Source: Blastocatellia bacterium (GTDB taxonomy: Bacteria; Acidobacteriota; Blastocatellia; HR10; J050). From it: DNA of 64,000 nucleotides. The stretch spans positions 1 to 64,000 of the forward strand of contig JALSQX010000004.1 in assembly GCA_026985075.1 (NCBI GenBank). Reading direction: 5' to 3'. Numbering within the stretch: position 1 is the first letter of the stretch; each line of letters starts with the position of its first letter. The position numbers were made by a program, and so were the translations under genes. Below, in pieces: positions 22,869 to 41,283 of this stretch. The notes under the pieces are model-generated. The model was not told where the DNA came from and ran no database searches. It saw only the letters and a list, made by a program, of their open reading frames with translations.

Positions 22869-24314
22869 TCAGTATCTCGGCACCGTGGGATCGACCTGCG
22901 CCGCCCAGCCGAGGATGCCCCCTCTCAGGTTCTTGATCTTCCGGAATCCCGCTCCTTGCAGGAACTGAACGGCGCGCGCGCTTCGTTGCCCCGATCGGCA
23001 GTAGGCGACGATCTCGTCGGCGCTGTTCAGTTCATGGACGCGATGAGGCAGTTGCCCGAGAGGAATCAATGTGGCGCCGGGGAGATGGCAGATCTGCCAC
23101 TCCTGTGGTTCGCGCACATCGAGCAGCACGATCTCCTCACCGCGATCCAGTCGCTCTTTGAGTTCCACCGGCGTGATCTCCCACAGACGACCCTCTTCGG
23201 CTTCGGGTTCCGGTTCGATGCCACAGAATTCTTCGTAGTCGATGAGCTCCGTGATGGTCGGATTCTCGCCGCAGACCGGGCATTCCGGATTCTTGCGCAG
23301 CTTCAGTTCGCGGATCTTCATCTTCAGAGCATCGACGAGCAACAAGCGTCCGATCAAGGGCTCGCCTTTCCCCAAAATGAGCTTGATGGTCTCCGTGGCT
23401 TGAATCACGCCCACCAGGCCCGGCAAGATCCCCAGGACGCCGCCCTCGGCACAACTGGGCACTAAGCCCGGCGGCGGTGGCTCTGGATAGAGGCAGCGAT
23501 AGCAGGGACCTTCAGGGGCATAAAACACCGACGCCTGACCTTCGAATCGGAAGATGCTGCCGTACACATTCGGCTTGCCCAGCAGGACGCAGGCATCGTT
23601 GACCAGGTAACGGGTTGGGAAGTTGTCGGTGCCATCGACGATGATGTCATAGTCGGCGAACAACTCCAGGGCATTGGCCGAGGTCAGGCGCGTCTCATAG
23701 GTCTCGACCTGGATGTGAGGATTGATGGCCAGCAAGCGCTCTTTTGCCGACTCCAGTTTGGGACGACCGACGTCGTGCGTGGAGTGGATGATTTGTCGTT
23801 GCAGGTTGCTCTCATCGACGACATCAAAATCGACGAGACCCAGGTGACCGACGCCGGCCGCTGCCAGATACAATCCCAGTGGCGAACCCAAACCGCCCGC
23901 TCCGATCATCAAAACGCGAGCCGCCTTCAACTTCTTTTGGCCGTCCATGGCCACTTCCGGCATGATGAGATGGCGACTGTACCGCCGGATCTCCTCGTGA
24001 CTCAATTCGACCTGTTCGGCCGGTACCTCGATGAGGGCACTTCCACCGGCCACTGAGGGCACGATGCTGATCTCGTCACCGTCTTTGAGCGGGGTTCGAC
24101 CCTGCTCCAGGTAGCGAATGTCTTCGTCGTTGAGATACACATTGACGAAGCTGCGAAGCCGCCCCTCCTCATTGAAAAGATGCTTCTTCAGTTCGGGAAA
24201 TTGCGACGTCAACTCGGCTAATGCCTCGTCGATGGTATGGCCTTGGACGGTGACGGCATCGCGATGACCGGCGTATGGTCGCAGCGGTGTGGGAATAAGA
24301 ACTTTGACGCCCAT
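22869..24314 (-). CDS. Fusion of ubiquitin-like sulfur carrier, E1-like adenylyltransferase and rhodanese
   Basis: Three domains lie in one 481-residue chain. Residues 1-91 are a MoaD/ThiS/CysO beta-grasp carrier ending in the diglycine 'VAGG' (Gly90-Gly91). Residues about 100-345 are a MoeB/ThiF-type E1: ATP loop 'VLMIGAGGLGSPLG' near 125, 'VDGTDNFPTRYL' near 207, and zinc pairs in 'CYRC' and 'CPVC'. Residues about 368-481 are a rhodanese with active loop 'AYCRSGQRSA'. The E1 adenylates a carrier's C-terminal Gly, and the rhodanese supplies sulfur to make the thiocarboxylate. Since the diglycine is internal, cleavage after Gly91 would be needed to free the carrier; the JAMM peptidase gene 20 bases upstream is the obvious candidate. 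The third gene of the cysteine operon, it resembles CysO-MoeZ merged into one protein. Confidence 0.9.
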   Translation of the reverse strand: MGVKVLIPTPLRPYAGHRDAVTVQGHTIDEALAELTSQFPELKKHLFNEEGRLRSFVNVYLNDEDIRYLEQGRTPLKDGDEISIVPSVAGGSALIEVPAEQVELSHEEIRRYSRHLIMPEVAMDGQKKLKAARVLMIGAGGLGSPLGLYLAAAGVGHLGLVDFDVVDESNLQRQIIHSTHDVGRPKLESAKERLLAINPHIQVETYETRLTSANALELFADYDIIVDGTDNFPTRYLVNDACVLLGKPNVYGSIFRFEGQASVFYAPEGPCYRCLYPEPPPPGLVPSCAEGGVLGILPGLVGVIQATETIKLILGKGEPLIGRLLLVDALKMKIRELKLRKNPECPVCGENPTITELIDYEEFCGIEPEPEAEEGRLWEITPVELKERLDRGEEIVLLDVREPQEWQICHLPGATLIPLGQLPHRVHELNSADEIVAYCRSGQRSARAVQFLQGAGFRKIKNLRGGILGWAAQVDPTVPRY

Positions 24315-24334: not shown

Positions 24335-24760
24335 CTAAGACTCCAGGATCAACTCTTCCGGATCGAATTGCGAGCGATCATCCCGTAAAATCCAGGAACG
24401 CATCTCGGCCGCCCGACCCTCCCGGATCGAGACGATGATGTAGGAATACCAGGGCCAGGCATGCTCCAGATCGTATGAGGATGGGCGGGCGGCGACGTCC
24501 GGGTGCGAGTGGTAAAATCCAAGAATATCCAGCCCGCGCTGCCGCGCATAACGATCGCCCTGAACGACTTCATCGGGCGGGATCAAATAGCGATTGCGCG
24601 GCGAGTCGAGCCGAGCATTGTCCACGGGTTTGATCTCTTGGACCACTTTCACCCCATCTCGCATCCGCCCCAAAAGGAGCCCGCAACATTCGTAGGGATA
24701 GGCCCGCTCTCCATGAGCCTGGATCGCTTGGCGATGTGCTGCGGTCAATCGAATACCCAT
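24335..24760 (-). CDS. mec: JAMM/MPN metallopeptidase, Mec-like
   Basis: This 141-residue enzyme has the full JAMM zinc motif: an upstream Glu in 'YECCGLLLG' and H-x-H-P-x6-S-x-x-D in 'YHSHPDVAARPSSYDLEH'. In mycobacteria Mec removes cysteine from the C-terminus of the carrier CysO after CysM has joined them. The gene sits between cysM and the carrier-E1-rhodanese fusion with gaps of 58 and 20 bases, so the same role is likely here. It may also cut the fusion after the internal diglycine to create the free carrier. Both activities are inferred from motif and context. GAGGGACGAAG precedes the ATG. Confidence 0.9.
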   Translation of the reverse strand: MGIRLTAAHRQAIQAHGERAYPYECCGLLLGRMRDGVKVVQEIKPVDNARLDSPRNRYLIPPDEVVQGDRYARQRGLDILGFYHSHPDVAARPSSYDLEHAWPWYSYIIVSIREGRAAEMRSWILRDDRSQFDPEELILES

Positions 24761-24818: not shown

Positions 24819-25748
24819 TCATTCGTCCCAGAAACGATCGCTCAAGTATCGATCCCCCCCATCGGGGAAGATGACGACGATGACGCCGGCGGTGAGCTGA
24901 CGAGCCACGCGAAGCGCTGCGGCCATCGCCGCGCCCGACGAAATGCCCACCAACAATCCCTCTTCGCGAGCCAATCGTCTCACCATCTGATGAGCCTCTT
25001 CAGTGCTGATACCCAGATTGGCATCGGCGAGTGTGGGATCGTAAATGCCCGGGACGATGGCCGTGGCCATGTGTTTCAATCCCTCCAGGCCGTGAAAGGG
25101 CGAATCCGGCTGTACCGAGATGAGTTGGATTCGAGGATCGAATTCTTTGAGTCGTCGTCCCGTCCCCACGAACGTGCCGCTCGTCCCCAAGCCAGCCACA
25201 AAATGAGTGATCCGTCCGCCCGTCTGCTGATAAATCTCCACCGCCGTCGTCTCATAATGCGCTCGCCAGTTCGCCGGGTTGTTATACTGATCGGGGTAAA
25301 AATATCGCTCGGGATGTTCTCGATACAGGCGCCTCACCTCCCGGATGGCTCCGTCAGAGCCCTCCAGCGGATCGGTGAGGATCAACTCCGCTCCCAGGGC
25401 TTTGAGAATCCGCTTGCGTTCCAGGCTGGCATTTTCCGGCAGGCATAGCTTGACGGCGTACCCCTTGGCCGCGCCGATCATGGCATAGGCGATCCCCGTA
25501 TTCCCCGAGGTCGCATCGATGATCGTTTTGTCCGGCGTCAACTCGCCCGAGCGTTCGCCCTCCAGGATCATGCTGAGCGCCGCTCGATCCTTGACCGAGC
25601 CGCCGGGATTGAACCATTCGGCTTTGGCGTAGATTTCCACCTCGCCGAGCCCTCGCGTGATACGCGAGAGCTTCAGCAGCGGCGTCCGACCGATGCGGTC
25701 GAGCACGCTCTCGGGTCGTTGGGTGATCACATCTTCTTTGAGCATCAT
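24819..25748 (-). CDS. cysM: PLP-dependent cysteine synthase, CysM-like
   Basis: A 309-residue beta-family PLP enzyme: the Schiff-base Lys lies in 'WFNPGGSVKDRAAL' near residue 48, the substrate loop in 'TSGNTGIAYAM' and the phosphate-binding glycine loop in 'GLGTSGTFVGTGRRL'. The adjacent JAMM peptidase and sulfur-carrier genes point to the mycobacterial-type CysM, which uses O-phosphoserine and a carrier thiocarboxylate instead of free sulfide. It is the first gene of the operon. Its start (ATG 25748 or 25745) lies just 7-10 bases after a terminator T-run, so read-through of that terminator decides expression. A poor ribosome binding site (GGTGGG inside the terminator stem) also couples translation to the RNA structure. 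Confidence 0.92.
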   Translation of the reverse strand: MMLKEDVITQRPESVLDRIGRTPLLKLSRITRGLGEVEIYAKAEWFNPGGSVKDRAALSMILEGERSGELTPDKTIIDATSGNTGIAYAMIGAAKGYAVKLCLPENASLERKRILKALGAELILTDPLEGSDGAIREVRRLYREHPERYFYPDQYNNPANWRAHYETTAVEIYQQTGGRITHFVAGLGTSGTFVGTGRRLKEFDPRIQLISVQPDSPFHGLEGLKHMATAIVPGIYDPTLADANLGISTEEAHQMVRRLAREEGLLVGISSGAAMAAALRVARQLTAGVIVVIFPDGGDRYLSDRFWDE

Positions 25749-25754
25749 TCAATG

Positions 25755-25789
25755 AAAAAACCCACCATCGGCTGTCGCCGGATAGTGGG
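25755..25789 (-). terminator. Intrinsic terminator in the cysM leader
   Basis: On the minus strand arms CCCACTATCCGGC (25777-25789) and GCCGATGGTGGG (25761-25772) form a 12-bp stem with a small loop, followed by six T (25755-25760). It ends immediately before the cysM start, so it is an attenuator rather than the end of an upstream gene. Confidence 0.85.
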
Positions 25790-25944
25790 TTTCGCCGCCT
25801 CCTTACTGAAGCCCGCCCAACTACGCTCCATCCCGAGCCTTCGGCCCCACTACCGGCGGATCAGCGCCAGCACGACATCGACACCGCGTCACGCCGACGC
25901 CCCTACACGTACACATACACTCCTGATTGATGGGCCGGCAGTGG
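25761..25944 (-). promoter_or_regulatory. Trp-type attenuator controlling the cysteine operon
   Basis: Four RNA segments can pair in alternative ways. Segment 1 (25935-25944, CCACTGCCGG) lies inside the leader-peptide frame. Segment 2 (25847-25856, CCGGTAGTGG) lies near its end. Segment 3 (25777-25789) is the 5' arm and segment 4 (25761-25772) the 3' arm of the terminator. 1 pairs with 2 (one G-U), 2 pairs with 3, and 3 pairs with 4. A ribosome stalled at the first Cys codon would mask segment 1 and allow the 2:3 antiterminator. A ribosome running to the stop codon would mask segment 2 and allow the terminator. The complementarity is read directly; the regulatory logic is inferred. Confidence 0.7.
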
Positions 25945-25964
25945 TTCACCGTCCTCTGCAACAT
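25821..25964 (-). CDS. Cysteine-rich leader peptide of the cysM operon
   Basis: A 47-codon frame from ATG 25964 to TAG 25821, with GGTGAGG placed 6 bases before the start. It holds six Cys codons, at residues 9, 16, 18, 20, 28 and 30 (HCRP, ECMCTC and RCRC), a very high density for such a short peptide. A shorter version from ATG 25916 (31 residues, four Cys, AGGAG 3 bases upstream) is possible. It starts about 40 bases after the predicted transcription start and ends before the terminator. The peptide itself probably has no function; translation of its UGU/UGC codons would sense charged tRNA-Cys. Poly-Cys leader peptides with this role are known from mycobacteria. Confidence 0.65.
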   Translation of the reverse strand: MLQRTVNHCRPINQECMCTCRGVGVTRCRCRAGADPPVVGPKARDGA

Positions 25965-26010
25965 CTCTCGCCTCACCCGTCGATTAATCTGACTCATTAG
26001 TAAGGTTACA

Positions 26011-26039
26011 ATCTTACCGAGACGAACGGGTCTTGTCAA
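26011..26039 (-). promoter_or_regulatory. Promoter of the cysteine operon
   Basis: On the minus strand a perfect TTGACA (26034-26039) and TAAGAT (26011-26016) are separated by 17 bases. Transcription would start near 26004-26007, giving a leader of about 255 bases before cysM. Confidence 0.75.
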
Positions 26040-26208: not shown

Positions 26209-26700
26209 TCAGGAGATCCAGAGGAGCTTATCCTGTTTGACGATCCAGCGGCCGTGTTGGCGCACGACGCGATAGAGATTGCCCGAGGCGCTGGTTCCCG
26301 CTTCGTAATACCCGCCCTCAACTTCGACCTCATCGTCGCTCACCCAGCGGATGGTGGTGATCCAGAAGATGAGCCCCTTTTCGCCGGTCGCTTTGTCGGT
26401 CACGCCCTGGTGGGGGGAGACCTCGCATTGGGAGACCTTTTTCACCGGCGGGATGTGATCCCGGAACCGTTTCATGAACCCGTCGGGAGGATCTCGATAG
26501 GCTCCCGGCCGACCGAATGAGAGGCAGTACACATCCGCTTGTTGCTGTAAGCCGGAGTGATTGTGTTGGAATTGGTAGCGAAAGACGGCTTCTCTGATGT
26601 CATTTTCTGCATCGGACCGAGAGATCCGGGTGGCCGTCGAGTTTTGACAACCGGCCGGAGTGAACATCCACAACGTGCAGAGGATCAGGATCATCTTCAT
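26209..26700 (-). CDS. Lipoprotein of unknown function
   Basis: The 163-residue product has a clear lipoprotein signal: MKMILILCTLWMFTPAGC, with lipobox P-A-G-C and acylated Cys18. The mature part starts with a helix ('RSDAENDIREAVFRYQFQHN') and ends in a small beta-rich domain ('GNLYRVVRQHGRWIVKQ') resembling the NTF2-like/DUF4440 style of secreted domains with a 'R-x-G-R-W-x-V' strand. Function is unknown. GAGGAGGTTT precedes the ATG. Sua5 lies 25 bases away in the same direction upstream, so it may be the last gene of a purE-sua5 transcript. Confidence 0.75.
   Translation of the reverse strand: MKMILILCTLWMFTPAGCQNSTATRISRSDAENDIREAVFRYQFQHNHSGLQQQADVYCLSFGRPGAYRDPPDGFMKRFRDHIPPVKKVSQCEVSPHQGVTDKATGEKGLIFWITTIRWVSDDEVEVEGGYYEAGTSASGNLYRVVRQHGRWIVKQDKLLWIS

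Positions 26701-41207: not shown

Positions 41208-41283
<76 letters not shown>

Follow-up and report, generated by a model that had tools for sequence, protein, structure and literature searches.

Does the leader of a cysteine biosynthesis operon in Blastocatellia sense the supply of cysteine, and by what mechanism? The question is raised by a locus in a 64,000-nucleotide stretch of DNA (hereafter the window) from a genome of this class, which includes Pyrinomonas methylaliphatogenes. Trp-type attenuators, represented by those of E. coli trp, his, leu and others, combine a leader peptide in which the regulated amino acid is abundant, three alternative RNA pairings and an intrinsic terminator before the biosynthetic operon, and each of these parts is found in the structured leader of about 250 nt upstream of a cysM-like gene in the window. 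The differences are that the amino acid is cysteine, that the frame crosses segment 2 and has its stop codon after it, and that the start is nearly leaderless in the window's family. Based on its sequence and predicted folding, we consider it highly likely that the leader is a trp-type, ribosome-mediated transcription attenuator sensing charged tRNA-Cys.

The features of the locus are listed in Table 1. As judged from their domain content, the three genes behind the leader form a carrier-dependent cysteine pathway, and the first of them is 97% identical to cysM of Acidobacteria isolate J050 (RFHM01000213.1). The mycobacterial CysO-Mec-CysM-MoeZ cysteine pathway likewise includes a cysteine synthase, a JAMM protease, a carrier and a MoeB-rhodanese activator, whereas here the carrier and the activator are fused and all parts are encoded in a single operon. 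The weight that a previous sequence-only reading of this DNA had placed on the fused carrier operon needs revision, as many Acidobacteriota, Ignavibacteria and other bacteria have such an operon, usually without a leader. In 10 genomes of the order, no serine acetyltransferase scored above the cysE cut-off, a result shared by 6 of 14 control genomes; it fits O-phosphoserine, and not O-acetylserine, as the substrate, without being proof of it. Elsewhere in the window, a 163-residue ORF without a Pfam match lies upstream of the leader on the same strand (26209-26700), and a tRNA gene on the minus strand (41211-41283) is the sole Rfam match at the gathering cut-off.

Table 1. Features of the leader and of the downstream operon, in window coordinates
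Feature	Position	Strand	Basis and remarks
Promoter	26011..26039	-	-35 TTGACA 26039-26034, 17-nt spacer, -10 TAAGAT 26016-26011; read directly and scanned
Leader peptide gene, probable full length of 58 codons (MSQINRRVRREMLQRTVNHCRPINQECMCTCRGVGVTRCRCRAGADPPVVGPKARDGA, then stop)	25821..25997	-	MSQI start and 16-mer ACTAATGAGTCAGATT in three genomes
47-codon version in the same frame (sequence-only reading)	25821..25964	-	Cys codons 25940, 25919, 25913, 25907, 25883, 25877
Segment 1 (CCACTGCCGG)	25935..25944	-	Overlaps the first Cys codon; partner is segment 2; 10 bp
Segment 2 (CGCCGGTAGTGGG)	25846..25858	-	Antiterminator arm within the uORF, 3' of the Cys codons
Segment 3 (CCCACTATCCGGCG)	25776..25789	-	Common to antiterminator and terminator
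Segment 4 (GCCGATGGTGGG)	25761..25772	-	Terminator 3' arm
Intrinsic terminator hairpin, then T6	25755..25791	-	Hairpin folding; T6 is 25760-25755
cysM-like cysteine synthase (PALP family)	24819..25748	-	PF00291; subfamily cysKM above cut-off, TIGR01138 just below its cut-off
JAMM/Mec-type metalloprotease	24335..24760	-	PF14464 Prok-JAB
ThiS-MoeB/ThiF-rhodanese fusion, sulfur carrier and activating enzyme	22869..24314	-	PF02597, PF00899, PF00581

Both direct reading and a scan confirmed the TTGACA-N17-TAAGAT promoter that had been proposed, and the 4.5 kb around it contain no other sigma-70-like promoter, compared with an expectation of 1.4 sites from shuffling. The six-Cys frame was also found as described, with Cys read directly at codons 9, 16, 18, 20, 28 and 30 of the 47-codon version (25964-25821); these codons are scattered and do not form a run. 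At the other end of the leader, the reported stem and T6 are indeed present just ahead of cysM, whose ATG at 25748 begins six bases (CATTGA) beyond T6. The hairpin was detected by hairpin folding; a simple terminator scan did not flag it because the scan pattern is strict.

The same reading had the frame start at the ATG at 25964, behind a Shine-Dalgarno sequence. The frame itself stands, but its start is probably the in-frame ATG at 25997, which would give 58 codons near the 5' end of the transcript. This start is better supported because three genomes of the window's family (L001, L009 and L010) share the sequence that follows it (MSQI...) without change, and the inner ATG lacks a Shine-Dalgarno sequence in the relative L010. 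The 16-mer ACTAATGAGTCAGATT, which lies directly 3' of the -10 hexamer and carries the MSQI start, is identical in the same three genomes. It was considered as a genome-wide operator and rejected, since genome searches revealed no second perfect copy in any of these genomes (n = 3) and the single copy is the start of the uORF frame. With its ATG 13 nt past the -10 hexamer, the uORF is nearly leaderless, and the mRNA 5' end probably lies just a few bases upstream of this first ATG. Measured on sequence, with start sites predicted, the distance from the -10 hexamer to the ATG is 12-13 nt in family f1 and 21-43 nt in most other leaders.

The four segments were confirmed to pair in the three proposed combinations, with energies over the originally proposed boundaries of -18.1 (1:2), -15.0 (2:3) and -18.7 kcal/mol (3:4). 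The 1:2 helix of 10 bp occurs in the minimum-energy fold, and the leader as a whole is more stable than its shuffles (z -2.35). When extended, 2:3 becomes a 13-bp duplex with one bulge (-26.5 kcal/mol) and 3:4 reaches -24.3 kcal/mol. The energies of these two alternatives are thus close in the window, as an attenuator reading would have it, but when the RNA is folded at equilibrium in its full length, 3:4 wins in nearly all states. The switch must therefore be kinetic and decided during transcription, which the folding does not show. When a ribosome on the Cys codons was simulated by masking them, 2:3 pairing increased in RNA that stops short of segment 4 (p = 0.0055 compared with no ribosome). 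Relative to a ribosome at the stop codon, the folding again gave more 2:3 (p = 1e-4) and a drop in 1:2. Besides the scattered Cys codons, two further features of the window speak against the attenuator reading: 2:3 pairing is substantial even without a ribosome, and the uORF stop is located about 22 nt beyond segment 2, so that a ribosome paused at the stop would leave segment 2 uncovered.

Taken alone, the window sequence proves little. The probability of at least six Cys in 47 codons is 0.023 in dinucleotide shuffles, or 0.005 with an open frame as well, which is only modestly unlikely, and the stop-free frame that spans the locus extends over 170 codons, so its openness by itself means little. 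It is conservation that decides, and once the relatives are considered, sequence comparison appears to exclude a chance origin. We analyzed the regions upstream of cysM orthologues in about 145 genomes, counting frames with at least three Cys within eight codons and deriving the expectation from shuffles. Such a frame was identified in 9 of 9 genomes of the window's order with a cysM orthologue (1.2 expected), and all nine have the complete set of Cys uORF, antiterminator and terminator ahead of cysM. In the Pyrinomonadaceae-like family f5, the frame is present in 23 of 37 genomes (3.1 expected), and several further genomes have sparser Cys codons before the same terminator; the full layout recurs in about 22 Pyrinomonadaceae-like relatives, as well as in two Ignavibacteria-type genomes (L053 and L113). 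In those f5 genomes without the leader that were inspected, what precedes cysM is, to judge from the available upstream sequence, another coding sequence and not a promoter. No genome of families f4 and f6 meets the Cys-frame threshold upstream of cysM, and the remaining Acidobacteriota and other phyla sampled have little or no excess of such frames, apart from the Ignavibacteria-type genomes.

In 33 parsed leaders, the order of parts is a TTGACA promoter (perfect in most), the uORF, its stop, the hairpin and the T-run, with usually 20-34 nt between the stop and the hairpin. The encoded peptides diverge between leaders while the Cys codons stay, as illustrated by MAMCCCRRTWDGSPAVAFVS, ..SCCCCCMCSSAVSGGGG.., MHNLCHCCCCHCACCACCLGRDRESICSVKGYLT and MQRTRTKKQICCCCCDEHRPGFGARET, and segments 2, 3 and 4 are kept as pairings despite changes of their letters. 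Because few positions vary homologously within the order, base-by-base covariation is too thin to count, and a swap test was used instead: each leader's own segment 2-segment 3 duplex was compared with swapped duplexes, and the own duplexes were better (P = 5e-5 for 33 leaders, and again in 17 representatives). This test could gain from shared base composition, for which a comparison with dinucleotide shuffles controls; in the latter, own 2:3 pairing has a mean z of -2.7, with p < 0.05 in 22 of 33 leaders, including 9 of 9 in the order. On this comparative evidence, the own-pairing of segments 2 and 3 is a signature of selection on a predicted antiterminator. The conservation expected of an attenuator thus extends to the Cys frame and the 2-3-4 pairings, but 1:2 is clear in the window's genus (again 10 bp in L009) and, by eye, in family f3, and less so elsewhere, with mixed outcomes for it in equilibrium folding.

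Several other arrangements were noted upstream of cysM. A conserved box, GAATATAGACTTTTTTGTAAAGATTCA, lies between the promoter and the uORF in many f5 leaders (L123, L124, L134, L140, L144, L145 and others), and a similar box precedes the non-cysM leaders L274 and L275. Poly-Cys uORFs are found in the Ignavibacteria-type L053, L113, L118 and L119, with clear terminators in the first two only. The leaders of family f8 (L019, L024, L025 and L032) lack an evident terminator, and their Cys-rich frame runs across the cysM start in a different reading frame, as if control acted on translation.

The sequence-only reading treated the window leader as unusual and solitary; several such leaders exist, including a second in the same genome. 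Class-wide, we searched for TTGACA followed by Cys codons; since the pattern scan (85-115 nt spacing) gives many chance matches, a match was retained only if its layout was conserved, a terminator was present or its gene context was clear. A genome-wide search for TGYTGYTGYTGY in five genomes did no better than a reversed control and is uninformative alone. The second leader of the window's genome, L272 (G000:C73:50900-55500, from about 375), has a counterpart in a congener (L273). It contains a frame with ...SAGCMCCCMPVGGAREAAGF..., followed by an antiterminator (-30.8 kcal/mol) and a terminator (-29.0 kcal/mol), and precedes a sulfite/nitrite-reductase-type (NIR_SIR) gene and cysH. Cys leaders are also found before a similar reductase in G155, G130/G120, G151 and G052, whereas others precede a gene pair with a luciferase-like monooxygenase related to SfnG/SsuD, a carbonic-anhydrase-like gene, or metY-metX. 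In L275, L281, L289 and L280, the leader precedes a gene without a Pfam or NCBIfam match that has IYYEHPDWFRPLF near its start and is perhaps ATP-grasp-like; an SfnG/SsuD-like monooxygenase gene or a D-cysteine desulfhydrase-like gene lies downstream of it. L284 has a Cys frame at the head of a peroxiredoxin-cysM operon. Among the extra leaders, those of the window's genus, L274 and L289 show significant 2:3 pairing but several others do not, which makes the attenuator reading firmer for the former than for the rest.

In front of metY or metX, the Cys uORF of L276, L277, L286 and L329 is followed by a SAM-II-like element and, where checked, by a terminator. The elements score 22-27 bits, under the gathering score of 36, and L276, L277 and L286 have sub-threshold matches to Rfam SAM_alpha/SAM-II. 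By this order of parts, the four leaders could be tandem cysteine-SAM switches. The highly conserved SAM-II-like core CGTGGCGATTTAAGGCAACTTGCTCCACG was also observed in L320 (G000:C83:101140) of the window's genome, before a gene resembling threonine synthase, and at about 65 other places in the class, before met genes; the Rfam model scores three tested copies of the core below its gathering score. A broader proposal, to which we give roughly an even chance, is that sulfur assimilation in Blastocatellia is largely under cis-acting cysteine attenuators before the cysM, sulfite reductase-cysH, sulfonate-use and metY/metX operons. Their mechanism would depend on the lineage, being mostly of the terminator type with gene-start overlap in f8, and in a few f5 genomes they would be stacked on a SAM-II-like riboswitch, reading cysteine supply and SAM in series.

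For the window leader, the parts, their conservation and their competing pairings, as read from sequence and folding, suggest the following mechanism. RNA polymerase would initiate just upstream of the 58-codon leader frame, which a ribosome would enter immediately. At ample Cys-tRNA, the ribosome would pass the Cys codons, 1:2 would pair behind it or segment 2 would stay occupied, and the 3:4 hairpin would form and end transcription at T6 before cysM. At scarce Cys-tRNA, the ribosome would stall at the Cys codons and cover segment 1, so that segment 2 could capture segment 3 before segment 4 is made. With the terminator blocked, cysM, the JAMM protease gene and the carrier-activator fusion would be transcribed and cysteine made. 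The stall and the response to cysteine are expected from this arrangement of parts, and the choice between the pairings would be made during transcription by analogy with known attenuators.

Could the same observations arise otherwise? The terminator adjoins the cysM ATG, with only CATTGA between them, and the sole G-rich stretch able to act as a Shine-Dalgarno sequence sits in segment 4. Control might then be cysteine-responsive but mainly translational, with the hairpin or a stalled ribosome governing access to the cysM start, as in mycobacterial poly-Cys leaders, and with the T-run secondary; the f8 frames that overlap the cysM start without a terminator would agree with this. Outside the window's genus, however, a distance of 38-187 nt separates the hairpin from the cysM match start further downstream, each time with a T-run, so that masking of the start is not the shared feature, and we regard a mainly translational switch as unlikely.

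Less probable still, the frame may merely lie within an element of another kind, be it a T-box, a metabolite-binding riboswitch or a leader bound by a protein. The length and structure of the leader would suit such an element, as would the unexplained conserved 5' boxes in f1 and f5, but Rfam covariance-model scans, which covered the window, the leader and the additional loci, left the leader without a match even when E values up to 5 were allowed, and the conservation between genera that an aptamer would show is missing from the leader's middle part. The least probable explanation is that a constitutive terminator and an unrelated, chance Cys-rich frame happen to lie together, with no cysteine sensing. 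The window-only Cys count, which is not extreme (P 0.02, or 0.005 with the open frame), and the 170 open codons could be so explained; the conservation of Cys codons while the remaining peptide changes, the own-pairing of segments, their constant spacing and the recurrence before other sulfur genes could hardly be. A ribosome-mediated transcription attenuator remains the preferred reading.

Cysteine attenuators are already known. The uORFC-8-2 motif, found before cysS in Rhodobacterales, has Cys codons in a uORF and a U-run terminator, and a stall at low Cys-tRNA has been proposed for it (PMC8632094). It resembles the window leader in these three respects, but its Cys codons are two in tandem, at positions 14-15, and it is confined to cysS in Alphaproteobacteria, whereas the leaders described here occur in Acidobacteriota before cysM and other sulfur operons, and 0 of 9 cysS genes examined in the order are preceded by one. 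In Actinobacteria, the Cys codons of poly-Cys leaders form runs close to the stop codon, and a conserved terminator hairpin is lacking (PMC1262725); those of mycobacteria are reported to be cysteine-responsive (Canestrari et al. 2020). The two types share short Cys-rich frames before cysteine or sulfur operons, several such operons per genome and perhaps a nearly leaderless start; here, by contrast, the Cys codons are mid-frame, and an intrinsic terminator with a matching antiterminator is conserved. We found no description of such an attenuator in Acidobacteriota in the open-access literature, in agreement with the original view that one is not commonly described in this phylum; the Acidobacteriota instance is apparently undescribed.

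The leader would provide a large and mostly uncultured group of bacteria with a concrete mechanism for sensing cysteine, in which the carrier-dependent cysteine pathway would be linked to its own product. Since the leaders of relatives vary in their letters and not in their layout, they lend themselves as a class to studying the evolution of attenuators and their movement between operons. The recurrence of such leaders suggests that a whole regulon may be controlled without a protein regulator.
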